A stretch of 54,564 nt of DNA from a virus, in the IMG/VR virus record IMGVR_UViG_3300008111_002018, positions 1-54,564 of that record; one strand, 5' to 3'. Numbering within the stretch: the stretch's first letter is position 1; each line of letters starts with the position of its first letter. Position numbers and translations under genes: made by a program. Below the pieces are notes generated by a model, which was not told the origin of the DNA, made no database searches, and saw only the letters and a list, made by a program, of their open reading frames with translations. Of the stretch, positions 2-52,587 are shown in pieces.

Positions 2-3000
2 GGAACTAGCGGAACATCAGGTTCGGCAGGTTCATCAGCAACTTCAGGAACTAGCGGTACATCAGGAACATCAGGTTCAAGTGGAACTTCAGGAACATCA
101 GGTTCAGCAGGTTCTTCAGCGACTTCAGGTTCTTCAGCAACTTCAGGAACAAGTGGAACATCAGGTTCAGCAGGTTCTTCAGCAACTTCAGGTTCATCAG
201 CGACTTCAGGAACTAGCGGAACATCAGGTTCAGCAGGTTCTTCAGCGACTTCAGGTTCATCGGCAACTTCAGGAACTAGTGGAACTTCAGGTACATCAGG
301 TTCAAGTGGAACTGCAGGTACATCAGGAGCATCAAGAACATCAGGAACTAGTGGTACATCAGGAACTTCAGGAACTTCAGGAACAGATGGTTCATCAGGT
401 ACATCAGGAACTGCAGGTACATCAGGAGCATCAAGAAGTTCAGGAACTTCAGGAACAAACGGTTCATCAGGAACTTCAGGAACTTCAGGAACTAGCGGAA
501 CATCAGGTTCGGCAGGTTCATCAGCAACTTCAGGAACTAGCGGTACATCAGGAACATCAGGTTCAAGTGGAACTTCAGGAGTTCTTCAGCAACTTCAGGA
601 ACTAGCGGTACCTCAGGTTCAGCAGGTTCTTCAGCGACTTCAGGTTCATCGGCAACTTCAGGTACAAGTGGTACATCAGGTTCAAGTGGAACCGCAGGTA
701 CATCAGGAGCGGCAAGAACATCAGGAACTAGTGGTACATCAGGAACTTCAGGAACAGATGGTTCATCAGGTACTTCAGGAACTGCAGGTACATCAGGAGC
801 GTCAAGAAGTTCAGGAACTTCAGGAACAAACGGTTCATCAGGAACTTCAGGAACTAGCGGAACATCAGGTTCGGCAGGTTCATCAGCAACTTCAGGAACT
901 AGCGGTACATCAGGTACATCAGGTTCAAGTGGAACTTCAGGAACATCAGGTTCAGCAGGTTCTTCAGCAACTTCAGGTTCTTCAGCAACTTCAGGAACAA
1001 GTGGAACATCAGGTTCAGCAGGTTCTTCAGCAACTTCAGGTTCATCGGCGACTTCAGGAACGAGTGGAACTTCAGGTTCGGCTGGTTCTTCAGCAACATC
1101 AGGAACAAACGGTTCTTCAGGAACATCGGGAGTTGCGGGAACATCAGGAGCTTCAAGAACATCAGGGACATCAGGAACAAACGGTTCATCAGGAACTAGT
1201 GGTACTTCTGGTACTGATGGAACATCAGGAGCTTCAAGAACATCAGGAACTAGCGGTACATCGGGTACATCAGGTTCAAGCGGAACTAGCGGAACTTCAG
1301 GTTCAGCAGGTTCTTCAGCAACTCAGCAACTTCAGGTACATCAGGAACTAGCGGAACAAGTGGTTCTTCAGGTTCAGCAGGTTCATCTGCAACTTCAGGA
1401 ACATCTGGTACTTCAGGAATAAGTGGTTCATCAGGTTCGGCAGGTTCATCGGCAACTTCAGGAACAAATGGTTCTTCAGGAACATCAGGAGTTGCGGGAA
1501 CATCAGGAGCTTCAAGAACATCAGGAACATCAGGAACAAATGGTTCATCAGGAACTAGTGGTACTTCTGGTACTGATGGAACATCAGGAGCTTCAAGAAC
1601 ATCAGGAACTAGCGGTACATCAGGTACATCAGGTTCAAGTGGAACTTCAGGAACATCAGGTTCAGCAGGTTCGGCGGGTTCTTCAGCAACTTCAGGTACA
1701 TCAGGAACTAGCGGAACAAGTGGTTCTTCAGGTTCAGCAGGTTCATCAGCGACTTCAGGTTCTTCAGGAACATCAGGTGCGTCAGGAACATCAGGTTCAG
1801 CAGGTTCATCAGCGACTTCAGGTTCTTCAGGAACATCAGGAGCGTCAGGAACATCAGGTTCAGCAGGTTCTTCAGCAACTTCAGGAACATCTGGTACTTC
1901 AGGAATAAGTGGTTCGTCAGGTTCGGCAGGTTCTTCAGCAACTTCAGGAACAAACGGTTCTTCAGGAACATCGGGAGTTGCGGGAACATCAGGAGCTTCA
2001 AGAACATCAGGAACATCAGGAACAAACGGTTCGTCTGGTACAAGTGGTACATCAGGTGTTGATGGAACATCAGGAGCTTCAAGAACATCAGGAACTAGCG
2101 GTACATCAGGTACAAGTGGTTCTTCAGGTTCAGCAGGTTCATCAGCAACTTCAGGTACAAGTGGAACATCAGGAGTATCAGGAGCATCGGGAACATCAGG
2201 TTCAGCAGGTTCATCGGCAACTTCAGGTTCAACAGGAACAAGTGGTTCTTCAGGAGCATCAGGAAATGCTGGTACATCAGGAGCGTCAGCAACATCAGGT
2301 TCAAGTGGAACATCGGGAACTTCAGGTTCATCAGGAGCGTCAGGAGCATCGGCAACATCAGGAACAAGTGGAACTTCAGGTACATCAGGTTCCGCAGGAG
2401 CGTCAGGAGCATCGGCAACATCAGGAACAAGTGGAACTTCAGGTACATCAGGTTCCGCAGGAGCGTCAGGAGCATCTCAAACTTCAGGAACAAGTGGAAC
2501 TTCAGGTACGTCAGGAGCATCAGGAAACGCTGGAACATCAGGAGCATCTGCAACTTCAGGAACTAGCGGTACATCAGGAACATCAGGTTCAAGTGGTACT
2601 TCAGGTATATCAGGAGCTGCGGGAGCGTCAGGACAATCGGCAACATCAGGTACCTCAGGTACATCAGGAACTGCTGGTTCATCAGGAGCGTCAGGAGCAT
2701 CAGCAACATCAGGTACTTCAGGTACAAGTGGTACGTCAGGAGCATCAGGAAACGCTGGAACATCAGGAGCATCTGCAACTTCAGGTTCATCAGGAACTTC
2801 AGGAACTGCAGGTTCATCAGGAGCGTCAGGAGCATCAGCAACTTCAGGTTCAAGCGGTACATCAGGAACTGCAGGTTCATCAGGAGCATCAAGAACTGCA
2901 GGTTCATCGGCAACTTCAGGTTCATCAGGAACTTCAGGAACTGCAGGTTCATCAGGAGCTGCGGGAGCTTCAGGAGCGTCAGCAACTTCAGGTACAAGTG

Positions 3001-3130
3001 GAACATCAGGTTCAGCGGGTTCATCAGGAAATGCGGGTACATCAGGGGCATCAAGAACTTCAGGAAGTTCAGGAACTTCAGGAACTAGCGGTACTTCAGG
3101 TACAACAGGTTCTTCAGGATTAAGTGGTCC
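2..3130 (+). repeat. Collagen-like GTS triplet repeat tract
   Basis: About 3.1 kb of low-complexity coding DNA is built from 9-base units such as ggaacatca / ggttcagca / ggaactagc. These encode Gly-X-Y triplets rich in Thr, Ser and Ala. Longer blocks of roughly 250-400 bases recur almost identically, for example around 300-560 and 690-930, and twice between 2330 and 2470, which points to expansion by recombination. The tract is the shaft of the S74 fibre. Confidence 0.9.
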
Positions 3131-3773
3131 AAGTGGTACTTCAGGTATTAGCGGTGGTTCATTCACATGTAATAACGTATCTGATTTGTATATCGTATAC
3201 GCAGTGAATGGTTCACAAATACAATCATCTTGTTGTCTATTCATTAAAGGTTCGGATTCGTTTGTCCACAACTGCGCGGGTTACAGGTCAGGAGTTTCAG
3301 GTTCGGCAGGAGCACCATCATTCTCATGGACGGCAAATACAAACACAGGTATATTCAACAGTGGAACTTCATATCTTGGATACTCATTGAACGGAACTGA
3401 AATGTTCAGAATGACAAACAATGGTGGATATGGTGATTTCCACGCAACTGCGAACATTATTGGATATTCAACAACACCATCAGATGAAAGATTAAAAGAT
3501 AATGTTAAAACTCTTGAAAACAGTTTAGGTATTATTGAAAAATTAAGACCTGTGTCATATACTTGGAAAGATGTTATGAGAAGAGGAAATGACTTTGGAT
3601 TAATTGCTCAAGAAGTTGAAAAAATAATACCTGAAATCGTTACAAATACAACATTACTTCAAACAGGTGATGAGGAGTTATATAAAACAGTGTCATACGA
3701 AAGATTGGTACCATTCCTAATCCAATCAATTCAAGAATTGAACAATAAAATTAAAGAATTAGAAAAGAAATAA
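2..3773 (+). CDS. Collagen-like tail fibre with C-terminal peptidase S74 chaperone domain (5' partial, two frameshifts)
   Basis: This is the 3' part of a giant fibre gene that enters from the left edge. Up to about 3150 it encodes almost pure Gly-Thr-Ser / Gly-Ser-Ala / Gly-Ser-Ser triplets, a collagen-like trimeric shaft very poor in proline. It then runs into a globular tip and a peptidase-S74 intramolecular chaperone. The motif SDERLK, with its presumed catalytic Ser codon at 3480 and Lys codon at 3495, and the later [15 protein letters not shown] are hallmarks of that family, which trimerises fibres and then cleaves itself off. The coding frame changes twice: near 580, where 16 bases are missing relative to another repeat copy, and at 1316-1331, where 8 bases are duplicated. 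From about 1329 to the stop the frame is continuous. Identification of the tip is firm; whether the gene is intact in nature is unknown. Confidence 0.85.
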
Positions 3774-3774
3774 A

Positions 3775-4086
3775 ATGGCTATAAAAGTAACAACACAAAT
3801 AGGAACCAGTGGTGGAATCACCACTGAAGCCTATGTAAGAATAGGTACTTATTTAATTGATAAATCCAACAATGCTGTTAGATTTGGGTTAGAAATTTAT
3901 AACTCAGAAGTAGATAAAAACAATAAAGACAATATTGTGACAAATAAACAAATTGGTAATTATGTATATAAAAAGGTTAGTAGTTTTACTTCATTTGAAA
4001 CTACTGATATCTTTTCAGCGGGGTATTCTGAATTAAGAACTCATTTGCAAAGTATTTACGGACCATCATCAACAGTTGATTGTTAA
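3775..4086 (+). CDS. Small hypothetical virion-associated protein
   Basis: The product is 103 residues, starts one base after the fibre gene stop and is followed six bases later by the next gene, so it belongs to the same transcript. I do not recognise the family. The protein has no signal peptide or membrane segment. It looks like a small beta-rich domain, with alternating hydrophobic stretches such as AYVRIGTYLIDK and VRFGLEIYNS. Its position directly behind a fibre gene suggests a fibre-tip, adaptor or other tail component, which is inference from context only. Confidence 0.7.
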   Translation: MAIKVTTQIGTSGGITTEAYVRIGTYLIDKSNNAVRFGLEIYNSEVDKNNKDNIVTNKQIGNYVYKKVSSFTSFETTDIFSAGYSELRTHLQSIYGPSSTVDC

Positions 4087-4092
4087 TAGAAT

Positions 4093-4707
4093 ATGGCAAC
4101 ACCACCAGGACCAGCATCACCCGGTAATCCTATTAGTTATGATAATATTAGGGCTGAGGTTAACTTTACGCCTAATATTGATATTGGATTGTATGATTTT
4201 GCAACATACATATATGATGATGGTTTTATTAATGACTATACATTTTATCCAGCATTTTATCCTTTACCATCAAGTCCTGCTGGAGGTGCAGTAACACAAA
4301 ACGCATCTATATCAATGTTTTATGATATAGATTCTGAGAGTTATTATGACATTCAATTCCAATCAGGAACACCTAGTTGGGTATCAACTATTGATGTGAC
4401 AATTAATGATGCAACTGTTTTGGCTAGCGGTTCAAATAGTGGACCAAACGCTGATACACAAACACAAATTAATGCAATGATTCGAGGGGGGACCGCTGGT
4501 AACCAACCCCATTGGTATCAAATAGATTTACAGGTTAATTTAAATGCTGGTGCACCACCATTTACACCAGCGGTAAATGTTGATTATGACACTGGTGCTG
4601 GTTTCACCGCTTTTCCTGGTTCACCAACTACATTTCCGGGTCTATTAACTACCGGAGCAATTATTAATGTTGCAAATGGTGGGACTGTTTACATTAGAGT
4701 TTCATAA
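4093..4707 (+). CDS. Hypothetical beta-rich virion protein
   Basis: The 204-residue product starts with a Gly/Pro-rich segment (MATPPGPASPG) and continues as a Thr/Gly/Asn-rich sequence typical of phage structural beta domains. There are no cysteines, membrane segments or catalytic motifs that I can see. It lies in the run of fibre genes, and the next plus-strand gene begins 50 bases later. A fibre, collar or accessory tail role is the simplest guess; the family is not recognised. Confidence 0.65.
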   Translation: MATPPGPASPGNPISYDNIRAEVNFTPNIDIGLYDFATYIYDDGFINDYTFYPAFYPLPSSPAGGAVTQNASISMFYDIDSESYYDIQFQSGTPSWVSTIDVTINDATVLASGSNSGPNADTQTQINAMIRGGTAGNQPHWYQIDLQVNLNAGAPPFTPAVNVDYDTGAGFTAFPGSPTTFPGLLTTGAIINVANGGTVYIRVS

Positions 4708-4756
4708 TTTTAATTTGCAAGTTTACTTAATAGATTTTATTTAATATACTTTATTT

Positions 4757-5356
4757 ATGTCAAGTAAAATACCGATATTTCCATACCCACCAACAATTGA
4801 TATAGGTAAGCACGCAAATGTTGATGACCAATTTTCACAACCTGAAATTGATGAATTAATTAATATAATTAATTCTTTAGAGTATGAAGAAGGAAGAATT
4901 GTAAATGAAAATTTTGTTGGTGAGGTTAACAAAGATGTTAGAAAAAGTAATGTTAAATGGATATACCCAACAAATGAAACTATGTGGTTATTTACCAAAT
5001 TAATGAAAATCATCCAATCAGTTAATGGTCAACTTTGGAATTTTGAATTAATTATGGCGAGAGAACCTATTCAATACACTGAATATGAAGACGATGGTGA
5101 ATATGGTTGGCACATAGATACAGGACATGGTCCTAGTGCTCAAAGAAAAGTGTCTATGTCGGTACTGTTAACAAATCCTGACGAATATGAAGGTGGTGAT
5201 TTGGAACTATGGCCTGGTGGTGAGATTAAAACAGTGGAAAGAAAACAATATAGTATGACAATATTCCCAAGTTGTATTATGCATAGGGTTACACCCGTAA
5301 CAAAAGGTATTAGAAAAAGTTTGGTATTTTGGGTAGGTGGAACACCTTACAGATAA
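4757..5356 (+). CDS. 2-oxoglutarate/Fe(II)-dependent oxygenase, prolyl-4-hydroxylase-like
   Basis: The 199-residue protein has the 2OG-Fe(II) dioxygenase core. The iron ligands are His119 and Asp121 in GWHIDTG and His176 in CIMHRVTPV, and Arg186 in the following RKSLVFWV would bind 2-oxoglutarate. The EGGDLELW segment between them is typical of the P4H/PKHD group that hydroxylates proline or other protein side chains. Such enzymes occur in many T4-like phages with unknown substrates. Here the gene sits between fibre genes and the glycan operon, tail-to-tail with the latter and overlapping it by 10 bases. Hydroxylation of a virion protein as a prelude to glycosylation is an attractive but unproven role. 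The start is the first ATG after a short AT-rich gap. Confidence 0.85.
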   Translation: MSSKIPIFPYPPTIDIGKHANVDDQFSQPEIDELINIINSLEYEEGRIVNENFVGEVNKDVRKSNVKWIYPTNETMWLFTKLMKIIQSVNGQLWNFELIMAREPIQYTEYEDDGEYGWHIDTGHGPSAQRKVSMSVLLTNPDEYEGGDLELWPGGEIKTVERKQYSMTIFPSCIMHRVTPVTKGIRKSLVFWVGGTPYR

Positions 5357-5727
5357 TCACTGTAAGATTTTTCTTCAATAAATCCTGAAGAAAACTTCAA
5401 ATTAATTTCTTTTTTAATTTTAGCACGAACATCATTAGTATAGTAAACTGAACGAGCAAGACTAACAAATTCTTCATCAAATTCTTTTTGTCTTTCTTTG
5501 TCCCTAATATCATCTTCAATAACCCAAAGGTCTTTATTAACTGACAATAATTCTAAATACTCAGGTGATAAAGTTGAAATACCCAAATCATTTTCAACCA
5601 CAGATAAAAGATACTCATACTCTTTTATGATGTTATCTAATTTATTTGGGTCGGTAATATTTTCCTTTTTAATTTGAAGAATTGTTAATTTGTCAACAAT
5701 TTCTCCATGTGATACTTCTATATTCAT
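5347..5727 (-). CDS. DUF6165-like small protein of the glycan operon
   Basis: The 126-residue protein opens with EVSHGEIVDKLTILQIKKE, the pattern I associate with DUF6165 proteins, which often sit in surface-polysaccharide clusters. The rest is helical and charged, with no catalytic motif that I can identify. It is the last gene of the minus-strand glycan operon and overlaps the preceding glycosyltransferase gene by four bases (ATGA-type coupling). The role is unknown; a regulatory or scaffold function in sugar transfer is conceivable. The family name is from memory and needs a profile search. Confidence 0.7.
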   Translation of the reverse strand: MNIEVSHGEIVDKLTILQIKKENITDPNKLDNIIKEYEYLLSVVENDLGISTLSPEYLELLSVNKDLWVIEDDIRDKERQKEFDEEFVSLARSVYYTNDVRAKIKKEINLKFSSGFIEEKSYSDYL

Positions 5728-36104: not shown

Positions 36105-36112
36105 TATTTATA
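36105..36112 (+). promoter_or_regulatory. TATTTATA box before the Thr-Pro-rich virion gene
   Basis: TATTTATA ends seven bases before the ATG at 36120 and is preceded by TTTG two bases earlier. It lies in the 31-base gap between the glycan cluster and the virion gene block, where a new transcript would be expected. It belongs to the recurring box described for other starts. Confidence 0.45.
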
Positions 36113-36119
36113 ATATAAT

Positions 36120-38885
36120 ATGGCACTAGTTAATAGGTATTTTTATCAATGTTGTAACCCTTTAGGGTCTGGTGCTCCAATTTATAGAACATTTGAAATT
36201 GACACTGCTGGTACGTGGACCGCAAATGTAAGCACCGTTATTTATACCGGTGACGGTAGTTGTTATTACTACACAATTACTAATTCTTTAGACCCACCAG
36301 AACAATCATTTGCAACTGAACAATATAGTACTTGTCCGGCATGTGACGCTGCAAATCCAAATGGATGTTATTATACTTTTTCAGCTTGTTGTGATGGTAG
36401 TACCTTTAGTATTAGAAGGGGTGATTTCGCTTTTGAAAATACATATGGACCATTAACCGTTGGTGAAATATGGAGATTTTCTATAACCACTGCCACAACG
36501 AGCCCTACAACATTTGCTTTTGTTGGGTGTGCATCTTATATTACAGGAGTCACAGGTTCAACAATTTATGTTCAGACAGGTGAAACAACAATAAATGTTA
36601 CAACACCTGGTACTTGGTCTGATTGTAATGATTGTTTAACAACATACCCTTGTTGTGTTTCAGGTACCGTTGATAATATACTTTGTTCGTATACTGATTG
36701 TTGTGGAACATTTGTGAGCGGTGGTAGTATTAATGATGTTGTATGTTTTAACCCTAATTTACCACACAGAGGTTTAGTAAGTTCGTATACCGATGCTTGT
36801 TCACAAGTTTGCCCAACACCTACACCTACGCCTACAAATACCGTAACACCAACTAATACGGTTACACCAACGGTAACTCCTACAAAAACAGTCACACCAA
36901 CAGTAACACCAACAGTAACACCAACCAATACGGTTACACCAACTAAAACCGTTACACCAACCAATACGGTTACACCAACCAATACGGTTACACCAACTTT
37001 AACACCTTCTAATACTCCCACTCCTTCAGTAACAGCTGGTCCTACGGATTATCAATTTAGGGCATGTTGTTCACCAAACGAAATTTTTGTTGTCGATGAT
37101 TATGTTGGAACCATAAATGTTGGTCAGGTGTATTATATAACAGGAACTGGTTTTACAGGCTGTGCTGAAGTAATACCAATGACTGGTTTTGGTGAAAGAT
37201 ATGTTATTAGTGGTCTGACAGGACCATACGATAATTGTTCGGTTTGTACTGACGATTATAGTTGTTGTGGACCGGGAAGTAACTGTATTGAATATCAAAT
37301 TAATAATACTCAGGAGTTCCCATCAACAGTAACATATGTAGATTGTAATGGTGATAATCAAAATTTGATTGTACCTGAACTATCTGAATTAAATATTTGT
37401 GCATGTGAATATAGTGTGATTGTACCTGAGGGTGTATTTGTTACAGTAATTGGGGACTGTAATCAAACAACACCAACACCAACTGTTACACCAACCCAAA
37501 CGCCGACACCATCTGTTACACCTGTTTACAGTCCTTGTAATACTGAATTTTGTTTATATACAAACTTTTCAGGTACATCAATGTATGATGGAAATTATAC
37601 ATCGGGTGGAACTTATAATGGAAGACCATATTGGACAGGTTCCACATCAGGTACTGTTTTTTATGATGGAACAAAATGGTGTTTATCCGATACTTTAGGT
37701 GGTGATTGTATATTGGCGGGTAAAACCCCATGTTTTTCAAATTGTCCTGATTTGGATGAATTGATATGGTCAGAAGGACCGTGTCCAACACCAACCCCCA
37801 CACCAACACCAAACGTCTGTATTACGGTTGATTTTCAAGCGTTGTTTGATTGTGACTATGTGCCCGAACCAACTGAGACTTGTCCGACACCAACACCGAC
37901 AATTAGTTTAACACCGAGTCCAAATCCTTGTCTTTTGGTAGATGCCGATGTTACAGTTGAAGATATAACTCCAACCCCCACACCAACTCCAACAGTCACT
38001 CCGACACCAAGTTTACAAAGAAATGTACCAGTATCAGGTTCAACAACTTATATCATAAATGATACTGAATTCGAGTGTGTGTTTGTACGTAGAATTCAAG
38101 ATTGTTCTGATGATGAAATTTATTATATCAATGAGTCTATGAGAACATCAGGTGGTACTATTGTAACAACAGGTCAAACCTTCAGTGCTGATGTATCAGG
38201 AACAACTAAGTGTTATACTTATTTGGATATTGTTTATGACCAAAGTCCAACTTTAACTATCAATACTATTATTGCATCATTCAGTGGATGTTCAAGTTGT
38301 GAGAACTCTTTAATACCAACACCTACTCCAACTAGTACTGTAACACCAACGGTAACTCCAACAACAACAGTAACACCAACTAATACAATTACACCAACAT
38401 CAACACCAACTAGTTCTGTTACTCCGACAATAACACCAACTGTAACTAAGACTTCAACACCAACATATACACCTAATGCGTCACCGTCAAAGACACCTAC
38501 ACAAACTAAGACACCTACATTAACTCCTACGCCAACTGTTACAGTAACTCCATCGGTTACTATGACTAAGACACCAACTAACACACCTACTAAGACACCA
38601 ACTAACACACCTACCTTAACTAAAACTCCAACTCCTACACCAACTAAGACACCTACTCAAACTCCTACAAAAACAACTTTACCTGATAAATTTATCGTAG
38701 AAAGTTGTTCTGAACCAGTTAGAAGTATTGCGGTTAACAACTTTGGTTTATTGAATGTAAGTGTCGGCGATTTTGTGAGATTGAATGGAACTGGATACTC
38801 AGGATGTTGGGAAGTTGTCGGAACTACACTGGGTGGAACTGCGACATCAATAGTTTCGGTACATAATGATTGTACATGTTCATAA
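36120..38885 (+). CDS. Large Cys-rich, Thr-Pro-rich virion surface protein
   Basis: The 921-residue protein alternates Cys-rich beta modules with mucin-like linkers of the type [15 protein letters not shown]. Long linkers lie near residues 230-305 and 730-855, with shorter ones in between. A module of about 45 residues with CC followed by VGxxYxITGxGFxGC recurs (for example [10 protein letters not shown] and [10 protein letters not shown]). A different module, FCLYTNFSG...NGRPYWTG, has a counterpart in the next large gene. No signal peptide is visible. The repeats suggest a long surface fibre or head/tail decoration. The Thr-Pro linkers are candidate O-glycosylation or proline-hydroxylation targets, which is inference. 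Confidence 0.75.
36808..37033 (+). repeat. Thr-Pro repeat tract 1
   Basis: The tract consists of repeated acaccaac(t/c)aatacggtt-type units encoding TPT-N/V/K-TVTPT. It is imperfect and coding, forming a linker between two Cys-rich modules. The same units dominate a second tract at about 38317-38678. Confidence 0.8.
38317..38678 (+). repeat. Thr-Pro repeat tract 2
   Basis: About 360 bases encode TPT/TVTPT/TKTPT units, including near-identical copies of actaagacacctac. The tract is the longest linker of the 921-residue protein and directly precedes its last Cys-rich module. Confidence 0.8.
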
Positions 38886-43141: not shown

Positions 43142-43149
43142 AAAAAAAG

Positions 43150-43180
43150 TTTGTATTTATCAAAATATTCACTATCTTTG
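43150..43180 (+). promoter_or_regulatory. Bacteroidota-type promoter of the non-coding RNA
   Basis: TTTG (43150-43153) and TATCTTTG (43173-43180) are separated by exactly 19 bases, fitting the Bacteroidota primary sigma consensus (-33 TTTG, -7 TAnnTTTG). An inverted repeat with 8-base arms, TTCACTAT (43168-43175) and ATAGTGAA (43182-43189), brackets the -7 element. It would suit an operator or a start-site hairpin. The expected transcription start is about 43185-43188. Confidence 0.75.
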
Positions 43181-43186
43181 TATAGT

Positions 43187-43370
43187 GAAGTCTGAAGGTT
43201 CTGAAGACTTAAATCAAAAGAACCTGATTGGAAAGGTTGAAGGTAACCCTCCCAATGAACCCGAAACAAAACCTTCTGAGCAAGTCCACCGCTAACTAGA
43301 ACATTGTGGACAAGAGGTGGAGCCAAGTCTCACGACTTCTAAAAGAGGACCCAAAAGGTCCTCTTTTTAA
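43187..43370 (+). ncRNA. Candidate structured non-coding RNA, about 180 nt
   Basis: No credible reading frame fills this gap, but it has its own promoter and ends in a strong terminator. Pairings seen by eye are a closing stem GAAGTC (43187) with GACTTC (43334); GAAGGTT (43194) with AACCTTC (43270); ATTGG (43227) with CCAAT (43252) enclosing GGTT/AACC; and GTCCAC (43284) with GTGGAC (43306). Competing pairings also exist: AAGTCT (43188) with AGACTT (43205), GGTTCT (43197) with AGAACC (43219), and AAGTC (43325) with GACTT (43334). The RNA could therefore switch between folds. I do not recognise it as tRNA, tmRNA, 6S or RNase P RNA. It might act in trans or as a leader of the next gene, although the terminator argues for an independent transcript. 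Confidence 0.7.
43341..43368 (+). terminator. Rho-independent terminator of the non-coding RNA
   Basis: AAAAGAGGACC (43341-43351) pairs with GGTCCTCTTTT (43357-43367) around a five-base loop CAAAA. This gives an 11-bp stem followed directly by T residues. It is the best terminator in the window. Confidence 0.9.
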
Positions 43371-43378
43371 TTTATGAG

Positions 43379-43386
43379 TATTTATA
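43379..43386 (+). promoter_or_regulatory. TATTTATA box before the gene at 43391
   Basis: TATTTATA lies just behind the ncRNA terminator and ends four bases before the ATG at 43391. Because the terminator should stop upstream transcription, a start signal is needed here, which supports a promoter function for this box. Confidence 0.5.
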
Positions 43387-43390
43387 ACTA

Positions 43391-43915
43391 ATGAAACTAC
43401 TTGGGATTCTTAACATATTGGTTGAAGAACAAATTGATAATCCAATTGTTGATGTTACCTTAAATGATTATAAAATAAGGTTTATATTAAGTACTCATGC
43501 TCAAGAAAGAATGACAAGAAAAGAAAATGATTCAGATATAACAATTGATGAAATCAAGTCGGCAATTAAAGACGCAATCCCAAAGATTACAAACAAAGCG
43601 TTTATTGTACAAAAAAGGGCAATACAAGGTCCAGTAATCGACGGAACCTTATTAAAAAAAGATTTTAGCTCAGGTCAAACTAGAAAAGAAAATTCACAAG
43701 AATTTTTTATTGTAAAAACAGATTCAGGATTACAAATTAGCTGTAAGGTGTTAAACTTTAATAAAAACAGAGGTGAAATTGAAATTATAATTAAAACATT
43801 AATGAAGAGTAACACAAATAAGTTAAACATTGATAACCCCCGTAGAAACACTTTACACTTGAATATTATTGAAAATATGGATGAGTTTGACAACTACTTC
43901 ACAATCACAGTTTAA
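43391..43915 (+). CDS. Hypothetical protein with DUF4258/RelE-like N-terminal pattern
   Basis: The 174-residue protein contains IRFILSTHAQERMTRKE followed by ITIDEIKSAIKDAIPKI. This recalls the H-A-x-x-R-M pattern and following helix of DUF4258/BrnT-type, RelE-fold small proteins. The second half (EFFIVKTDSGLQISCKVL) could continue such a beta-sheet. No antitoxin-like partner is adjacent. It follows the ncRNA unit directly, so the two may be functionally linked. The family suggestion is tentative. Confidence 0.65.
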   Translation: MKLLGILNILVEEQIDNPIVDVTLNDYKIRFILSTHAQERMTRKENDSDITIDEIKSAIKDAIPKITNKAFIVQKRAIQGPVIDGTLLKKDFSSGQTRKENSQEFFIVKTDSGLQISCKVLNFNKNRGEIEIIIKTLMKSNTNKLNIDNPRRNTLHLNIIENMDEFDNYFTITV

Positions 43916-51224: not shown

Positions 51225-51782
51225 ATGTCAAATAAAAAAAGAGAAGTTGTAGGTACAAAGTATTTCCTGTTGTTGTTCGGTGATTTTAAAAACAATAACT
51301 TTCTATTAGAACAAATTTTAGGACAATTTGAACCTGTTTTATGTTCAAATTTTATGAAGTTTCATTTTACAGATGAATATGTGATTTCACATTTCGAAAC
51401 AGAAGAGACACCAAAGGATATCAAAGAGTTCTGTAAAATTGTGTTAGAAGATATAATTGACAATTATATTTTATTACCACACAATAAAAATATATTAGTA
51501 TCGTTACCTAAAGACATTGAAGATGACTTAATGGATTTAGATAATGAAAACACGCTAAAAACTGACAAATTGTCCGAAAATACTGACATAAAACACATAT
51601 CTGAAGTCATGGAACATGTTTTGACCAACTTGTTTGGTTCCAAAAATGAACCTGATGATATATATGAACAGGCAAACGTGCCAACATTAGACGAACTATT
51701 AGACAAAATAAAAACAGTCGGAATCGACAAACTAACAAACCAAGAAAAAGAACTACTTTATGACTACTCCAGAGCTATCTAA
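51225..51782 (+). CDS. Hypothetical protein with DUF6576-like C-terminal segment
   Basis: The 185-residue protein ends with PTLDELLDKIKTVGIDKLTNQEKELLYDYS. This is the pattern of the short segment (I believe DUF6576) attached to rhomboid-type proteins of Bacteroidota. The rest is acidic and shows no motif, although the first third may form an RNA-binding-like alpha/beta fold (KYFLLLFGDFKNNNFLLEQIL). The gene overlaps the sigma factor gene by 23 bases, suggesting coupled expression. An interaction with the sigma factor is possible but unsupported. Confidence 0.7.
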   Translation: MSNKKREVVGTKYFLLLFGDFKNNNFLLEQILGQFEPVLCSNFMKFHFTDEYVISHFETEETPKDIKEFCKIVLEDIIDNYILLPHNKNILVSLPKDIEDDLMDLDNENTLKTDKLSENTDIKHISEVMEHVLTNLFGSKNEPDDIYEQANVPTLDELLDKIKTVGIDKLTNQEKELLYDYSRAI

Positions 51783-52587
51783 AAACCACCAAACAACTAA
51801 GAACACAGGTTCTATTAACCAAGAAGAAATTTCATCATACCTTAAGGACATTCGTAAACTAAAAGTAATGACACCTGACCGTGAACGTCAACTGTCAGAT
51901 TTGATTTTAGATATAAATTGTACTGAGCGTCAAAAACAACAGATTCACAAAGAATTACTCGAAGGTAATTTACGTTTTGTAATTACAGTTGCTAAACAAT
52001 ACCAAAATCAAGGATTAGACCTTTCAGATTTGATTGCTGAAGGGAACTTAGGATTAATAAAAGCCATTCAAAACTTCGATTGGACTAAAAAATTACGTTT
52101 TATTTCATACGCTGTTTGGTGGGTTAAACAATCAATCTTACAATCCCTTAATGAAAACGCACGAACAATTCGTCTTCCTGTAAATGTGGTTCAAGAGCTA
52201 CACAGGGCAAAGAAAGAAGTCGATAAAGGTATTTCGGAACTCGACAGTAGATTAGCCACACTCCCAACTACAATTAATTTGCAACAAACAATTAATGAAG
52301 ATGGTGATACACTTTTGGATATGATTATTAACCAAAACGCTTCAATGCCTGACGAAGGGTTGAATACTGAGGAAATGTTAAAAGAAAAACTACTTTCCAT
52401 TTTGAGCATCTTGGATGAACGTGAAAGAATTATTGTTGAGGACTATTTTGGACTAACTGGAACTCCAAGAACACTTGAAGACATCGGTAATGATTTTAAA
52501 TTGACTAAGGAAAGAGTTCGTCAAATTAAAGAAAAAGCGTTACGTAAATTACGTAATGAGTGTTCAACATTATTTGACTATTTATAA
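51760..52587 (+). CDS. RpoD-family RNA polymerase sigma factor
   Basis: The 275-residue protein contains region 1.2 (EISSYLKDIRKLKVMTPD) and region 2 (GNLRFVITVAKQYQNQGL, then DLIAEGNLGLIKAIQNFD and ISYAVWWVKQSIL). A shortened region 3 precedes region 4 (LEDIGNDFKLTKERVRQIKEKALRKLRN). It is close to the primary sigma of Bacteroidota but lacks much of region 3. T4 itself uses a highly diverged sigma (gp55) for late genes, so this protein could direct transcription from the phage's own promoters. The recurring TATTTATA boxes are candidate targets. Confidence 0.93.
   Translation: MTTPELSKNHQTTKNTGSINQEEISSYLKDIRKLKVMTPDRERQLSDLILDINCTERQKQQIHKELLEGNLRFVITVAKQYQNQGLDLSDLIAEGNLGLIKAIQNFDWTKKLRFISYAVWWVKQSILQSLNENARTIRLPVNVVQELHRAKKEVDKGISELDSRLATLPTTINLQQTINEDGDTLLDMIINQNASMPDEGLNTEEMLKEKLLSILSILDERERIIVEDYFGLTGTPRTLEDIGNDFKLTKERVRQIKEKALRKLRNECSTLFDYL

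Follow-up and report, generated by a model that had tools for sequence, protein, structure and literature searches.

A conserved, structured non-coding RNA gene and an adjoining gene for a putative RelE/RegB-fold ribonuclease behave as one exchangeable cassette in phages of Bacteroidota-type hosts

The locus, its signals and its distribution

The window analysed here is the whole stretch of 54,564 nucleotides forming positions 1 to 54,564 of IMG/VR virus record IMGVR_UViG_3300008111_002018, a virus of Bacteroidota-type bacteria. Its gap at 43142-43390 holds a promoter, a strongly folding sequence and an 11-bp terminator, with a presumed virion gene on one side and RuvC, primase and exonuclease genes on the other (Table 1). 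Elsewhere in the window, presumed virion proteins (38234-38608 and 81-3123) carry long threonine/proline-rich and collagen-like repeat regions. A preliminary description of this DNA had placed here, at the border of virion and DNA-metabolism genes, a self-contained phage RNA gene of no assigned family with a Bacteroidota promoter and an 11-bp terminator. The setting and both signals were found again, and conservation, covariation and the lack of an Rfam match agree with that assignment: 43150-43370 does hold a gene for a non-coding RNA that is both conserved and structured.

Table 1 Features of the RNA locus and of the adjoining gene orf174.
Feature	Position	Strand	Details
Bacteroidota sigma-ABfr-type promoter	43150..43180	+	-33 TTTG (43150), N19, -7 TATCTTTG (43173-43180); pattern match
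8-bp inverted repeat around -7 box	43168..43189	.	arms TTCACTAT/ATAGTGAA, 43168-43175/43182-43189, perfect, 6-nt spacer
Non-coding RNA, about 185 nt	43186..43370	+	start deduced from promoter, end from terminator
Pseudoknot 1	43188..43224	+	P1 43188-43193/43205-43210; loop strand 43197-43202 pairs 43219-43224; third loop A-rich
Pseudoknot 2	43227..43276	+	P2 43227-43231/43252-43256; P2a 43235-43238/43245-43248; loop GAAGGU 43239-43244 pairs ACCUUC 43271-43276
Hairpin P3	43284..43311	+	stem 43284-43289/43306-43311; invariant AACUAG in loop; covarying pairs
Hairpin P4	43313..43340	+	43313-43318/43335-43340, inner 43320-43322/43329-43331; loop CCRAGU; contains GGAG
Intrinsic terminator	43341..43372	+	11-bp perfect stem 43341-43351/43357-43367, then T5
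Phage late-promoter-like box	43378..43390	+	GTATTTATAA, just 5' of orf174; contains TATTTAT
orf174, putative RelE/RegB-fold ribonuclease	43391..43915	+	N-terminal head-targeting-like peptide MKLLGILNILVEE

Relatives were gathered by scanning IMG/VR with the neighbouring proteins, which gave near-identical contigs (L001-L007), one diverged relative (L008 and L017, the same contig) and a wide set around the RuvC-like gene. In nearly all of the wide set the 734-aa upstream gene abuts the RuvC-like gene, usually with a gap of 0-8 nt and at most about 60 nt; an insertion at this junction occurs only in the closest clade (window/L008, L016, L033 and L060) and, separately, as an unrelated one in L074. 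Clear, diverged copies of both the RNA and orf174 are present in L033 and L060, both are absent from relatives that have the gene junction without the insertion, and L016 shares 43 nt that take in the promoter, behind which come another RNA, about 110 nt long, a different terminator and an unrelated gene of 166 aa. The RNA and its gene thus behave as one exchangeable cassette, present or absent together at the junction and both replaced in L016. Pattern scans of the 2.9 million viral contigs of IMG/VR returned the same 10 contigs whether made with the RNA or with orf174, two chance matches of the RNA pattern being left out of the 10; common descent could explain this linkage, since all versions belong to one clade and one locus.

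Several further elements were observed at or near this junction. The replacement in L016 (5280-5967) comprises this structured RNA (z -2.56; best Rfam match PrrB_RsmZ, 21.3 bits against a threshold of 44) with its terminator, and the 166-aa gene, which has an orf174-like N-terminus (MKLLSIANSLILEA) and gave a poor structure model (pLDDT 42.9). Probable GIY-YIG homing endonucleases, recognized by eye, lie at the same junction in L074 (5280-5985) and inside the RuvC-like gene in L017 (5230-5980). A conserved ORF of 43-44 aa (MENKDWKQGLSNGHIAQIVRRKNV...) is found in L060 (4527-4660), apparently co-transcribed with the RNA, and in L033 (3150-3285). L033 (IMGVR_UViG_3300032293_001706, 3615-5360) also holds CRISPR-like arrays, grouped in three clusters, with 36-nt repeats (GTTGAAAGAATCCTTCAAAAAGAGGTTAAAGACACC) and eight 30-nt spacers that all differ. 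The arrays apparently lie within ORFs, which read VERILQKEVKDT followed by 10 variable residues; the last array shares its frame with the orf174 domain. No spacer matched phage records, and the repeat is missing from 396 Bacteroidota genomes. Since these repeats with their unique spacers adjoin the RNA in L033, a tracrRNA or other CRISPR-related RNA was considered. This reading is barely credible and was rejected, the duplex energy of repeat and RNA being at chance level (64 of 300 shuffled repeats were as good); moreover, the window, L008 and L060 have no arrays.

The promoter pattern by itself is found about as often as chance predicts for so AT-rich a window (9 times, 5.6 expected), and the weight of the call comes from conservation: the promoter is identical in L008 and L016, and L016, in which another RNA follows, shares all 43 nt that span it. 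Analogous promoters stand in another sequence context in L033 (TTGG-N19-TATATTTG) and, ahead of a small ORF, in L060 (TTTG-N19-TATATTTG). The inverted repeat around the -7 box, earlier described as operator-like, does have perfect 8-bp arms. Dyads of this kind are not rare, however: simulation yields comparable ones in 1.5% of 70-nt stretches, and 27 of 779 stretches taken from the window contain one, so that this one is only mildly unusual. L016 retains the arms (CACTATC/GATAGTG) with a 10-nt spacer, compared with 6 nt in the window, which disfavours an operator of fixed spacing, and L060 has no obvious dyad; the operator interpretation is correspondingly weak. The terminators are G+C-rich and differ in sequence between all RNA versions.

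Fold, covariation and relatives of the RNA

The RNA folds with an energy of -55.1 kcal/mol (z = -3.75), a stability equalled by none of 200 shuffled sequences. Four versions were aligned (alignment A4), three of them independent (window/L008, L033 and L060) and all from one clade and one locus. Their common architecture consists of two tandem pseudoknots followed by the hairpins P3 and P4. In pseudoknot 1, P1 has the consensus AAGUCY/RGACUU and the loop GGUUNY pairs with a downstream strand ending in AACC; a U-A pair of P1 changes to C-G, and a pair of the loop helix (PK1) appears as C-G, U-A or A-U. In pseudoknot 2, P2 and P2a have the consensus AUUGG..GGUU/AACC..CCAAU and the loop GAAGRU pairs with AYCUUC, with one PK2 pair appearing as G-C, A-U or G-U; 44 nt of this region are identical between the window and L033, although the orf174 DNA of the two is only 67% identical. 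L033 has a GUCUA/UAGAC version of P3, misaligned by 3 nt in the alignment, and lacks P4, so that its RNA runs from P3 into the terminator; P4 shows compensatory changes against L060.

Across the alignment 94.6% of all cells pair, compared with 89.4% in shuffles (0 of 500 as good), and nine pairs are changed on both sides, compared with 4.1 in shuffles, a number that none of the 500 reached. When the partner strands were slid against each other pairing fell to 31-56%, a control biased towards the structure, which was derived from the same sequences. The comparison with related phages for compensating substitutions thus came out positive, and the long-range pairings noted in the preliminary description are real; the two pseudoknots had been overlooked there, and the closing stem of the minimum-energy fold (43187-43192/43334-43339) is broken in relatives. 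In comparison with L008, the core of the RNA carries one deletion and, over 154 aligned nt, no substitutions, whereas identity is 89.5% for orf174 and 86.3% for the final 600 nt of the upstream gene. If divergence were 10%, the chance of so long a stretch staying unchanged would be about 9e-8, but a recent exchange of the segment between both phages could also have produced the identity.

The same alignment bears on whether a short peptide is encoded instead (frame KSEGSEDLNQKNLIGKVEGNPPNEPE), which we consider highly improbable. No stop codon interrupts the frame in the window, L033 or L060, and the loop deletion of L060 is a multiple of three; nonsynonymous codon changes nevertheless outnumber synonymous ones (5 v 3, 8 v 3 and 10 v 1), L033 has no in-frame start codon after the preceding stop, and in L008 the frame is disrupted by a deletion of 1 nt. 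On these three grounds the peptide was rejected, and the compensatory changes in the RNA stems likewise speak against it.

No part of the window matched an Rfam family at the gathering threshold (the best match below it had E = 0.55), a permissive search also gave nothing, and the RNA is accordingly not in that library. A tRNA/tmRNA search found none at the RNA locus, and BLAST against phage records and plasmids returned nothing meaningful for the RNA. A covariance model, built without pseudoknots, recovered the four versions with 141-194 bits (L017/L008 190, L060 158, L033 141) and nothing else above 17 bits among the loci and contigs searched. Applied together with an orf174 profile to 396 Bacteroidota genomes it gave nothing, the RNA search being coarse, with only about 7 candidates scored per genome. 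The 44 stretches that a pattern scan of genome contigs produced were discarded as chance, sharing no sequence between the two anchors, as were extra IMG/VR matches to a looser RNA core pattern, which the covariance model did not support. A VIPR guide RNA (9-16 tandem YNNGG repeats) was dismissed as well, GGYNNGGYNNGGY occurring nowhere in the window; Tandem Repeats Finder detected no tandem repeats in the RNA, whose only direct repeat is an imperfect one of 12 nt with a spacing of 45.

The main rival to the reading that we favour below is a counter-defence decoy, in which the pseudoknot RNA would mimic or saturate an RNA-binding defence component of the host, e.g. a host type III toxin, and orf174 would be an unrelated passenger. 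A swappable phage cargo site, a host-type and presumably early promoter and a pseudoknot architecture would all suit such a decoy, for which phage PhiTE provides a precedent (PMC3475682). However, no relative of the RNA appeared in the 396 sampled Bacteroidota genomes (by the coarse search), in plasmids or in phage records, the RNA has no ToxI-like tandem repeats, and the strict pairing with orf174 would be left unexplained, so that we regard the decoy as unlikely. A decoy for host RNA polymerase, also proposed earlier, finds no support in the kept elements, which are pseudoknots and no mimic of an open promoter.

Quite unlikely, in our estimate, is a trans-acting regulatory RNA of the phage cycle, acting by base pairing with mRNAs or as a sponge that takes up a regulator of phage or host, and merely sharing the cassette. 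A separate transcription unit bounded by its own promoter and terminator, the invariant loop AACUAG and the long identical blocks are what such an RNA could display. Against it, the invariant parts lie mostly inside compact pseudoknots and not in exposed seed regions, and the RNA is missing from most close relatives, which puts it outside the core phage cycle.

The protein encoded by orf174

The orf174 protein shows a conservation of 55-58% against the L033 and L060 versions and matches no family above threshold, the DUF4258 score of 13.7 bits lying below the cut-off of 25. The protein was modelled with AlphaFold from four sequences (mean pLDDT 72.9, residues 1-15 disordered). Foldseek searches of BFVD matched the model to four uncharacterised viral proteins at E < 1e-3 and to a phage RegB 'site-specific RNA endonuclease' (E 5.9e-3, probability 1.00); fold matches in the PDB are weak (best E 0.23) and include T4 RegB (2hx6) and a toxin-antitoxin complex (7vd7), with ToxN missing among those listed. 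At the sequence level orf174 matched neither RelE/RegB families nor, in PADLOC, Pfam and NCBIfam, toxins of the ToxN/CptN/TenpN type, and the phage of its top fold match, PTm1, yielded no sequence-level match and no RNA. We read the model as a probable RelE/RegB-type fold, from which we infer a nuclease activity. RegB uses two histidines (PMC3014915); only one histidine is invariant among the orf174 versions.

The box in front of orf174 (GTATTTATAACTAATG) is of a late type. TATTTAT occurs 10-29 nt 5' of start codons far above expectation in the L033 contig (59 seen, 4.7 expected), the L060 contig (22 and 1.9) and the window (7 and 0.8), which is consistent with a late promoter and makes the box a candidate for that role in these phages. 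Boxes in the window were noted at 36105, 40925, 43379, 52579, 52596 and 54211, and a protein that by eye resembles the sigma-70 family (EEISSYLKDIRKLKVMTPDRERQL, 51760-52587) could be a late sigma factor reading them. The RNA, having a host-type promoter, is presumably early; RNA and protein are therefore probably timed differently.

The separate box also bears on a cis-acting leader or attenuator, in which the RNA would sense something and the terminator would control read-through into orf174. The order of RNA, terminator and gene is the same in all versions and mutually exclusive pairings exist, but orf174 has its own late-type box 3' of the terminator, another ORF separates it from the RNA in L060, and the folds show no pairing between the terminator and the conserved domain. 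Such a leader appears improbable.

The N-terminus of orf174 resembles T4 head-targeting peptides with a terminal [LIA]xE cleavage site, the consensus for T4-type head-protein cleavage, and has equivalents in L008, L033 and L060; the putative sites in the four versions, defined at the level of the motif only, are LVE|E, LFE|E, LIE|G and LIE|S. Near the N-terminus [LIA]xE is commoner in ORFs preceded by a late box (16 of 57) than in others (27 of 280; p = 7e-4), and a gp21-type prohead protease (PF03420) was found in seven of the nine relatives tested (the L033 contig and six others). These observations support a head-targeting-type N-terminus, which makes orf174 a probable head-packaged protein that would be injected.

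A possible RNA-protein pair and comparison with known systems

We propose that the locus may be a two-part cassette, in which a structured RNA would be made early from the host-type promoter and ended by the terminator, and a RelE/RegB-like endoribonuclease, orf174, would be expressed late, packaged in the head and injected. By binding orf174, the RNA would restrain the nuclease during its synthesis in the producing cell and again once a new infection is under way, in a manner resembling that of type III antitoxin RNAs holding their toxin. The binding of RNA to protein, the inhibition, the timing and the injection are each steps that we infer. Inhibition of orf174 is favoured because of the layout, like that of type III systems with their pseudoknot RNA, terminator and endoribonuclease (PMC5086642), the precedent of the RNA RCd22, which neutralises the phage-encoded toxin AbiF (PMC12373285), and the occurrence of RNA and gene in the same 10 contigs. 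We hold this restraint tentatively, at somewhat under an even chance, and as type III-like and not as type III membership, because the RNA has no tandem repeats and the toxin is of another kind. Of the roles suggested earlier, an antitoxin-type RNA for the adjacent DUF4258/RelE-like gene is the one that the linkage and the RegB/RelE-like predicted fold favour most; the DUF4258 assignment of that gene stays below threshold.

In its fullest form, an early double-pseudoknot RNA disarming a late, head-packaged and injected RelE/RegB-fold ribonuclease would constitute a novel type of RNA-protein cassette among lytic T4-like phages, a conclusion that we consider unlikely as it stands. If true, the enzyme would be active only during the brief interval that precedes RNA synthesis in the freshly infected cell. 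To what lytic T4-like phages of Bacteroidota-type hosts carry, the locus adds a structured RNA class that compensatory changes support, and it offers a concrete candidate for the restraining partner of RegB-like phage ribonucleases, which a review of T4 raises only as a possibility (PMC3014915). As the cargo site swaps RNA and gene together, the same junction in relatives may yield other RNA-protein pairs.

Among known systems, the cassette is like type III toxin-antitoxin loci (ToxIN, CptIN and TenpIN) in combining a pseudoknotted non-coding RNA, a Rho-independent terminator and a gene for a small putative endoribonuclease. It differs in that the RNA has no tandem repeats and is larger and composite, with two unlike pseudoknots and two hairpins, that orf174 looks RelE/RegB-like and not ToxN-like, and that RNA and gene, as read from their boxes, appear separately promoted instead of forming an operon. 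PhiTE, also a lytic myovirus, has a pseudoknot RNA gene of its own in pseudo-ToxI, but this RNA is a repeat-based mimic of a host antitoxin, and no such host counterpart was found for the RNA described here. Prophage-encoded AbiF/RCd22 also joins a phage-carried toxin gene to an RNA neighbour, RCd22 neutralising AbiF by RNA-protein contact; AbiF, however, is a HEPN/Abi_2 toxin with another RNA, whereas the present RNA has no Rfam match. The T-even internal proteins with a capsid targeting sequence, for which the literature examined describes no RNA partner, resemble orf174, whose packaging is a motif-level prediction, in joining variable cargo to a common short N-terminal targeting and cleavage peptide. 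T4 RegB, RelE/YoeB-like and with no partner known to us, is phage-encoded as orf174 is and has the same kind of predicted fold; it is early, whereas orf174 has a late-type box, a head-targeting-like N-terminus and no two-histidine site.
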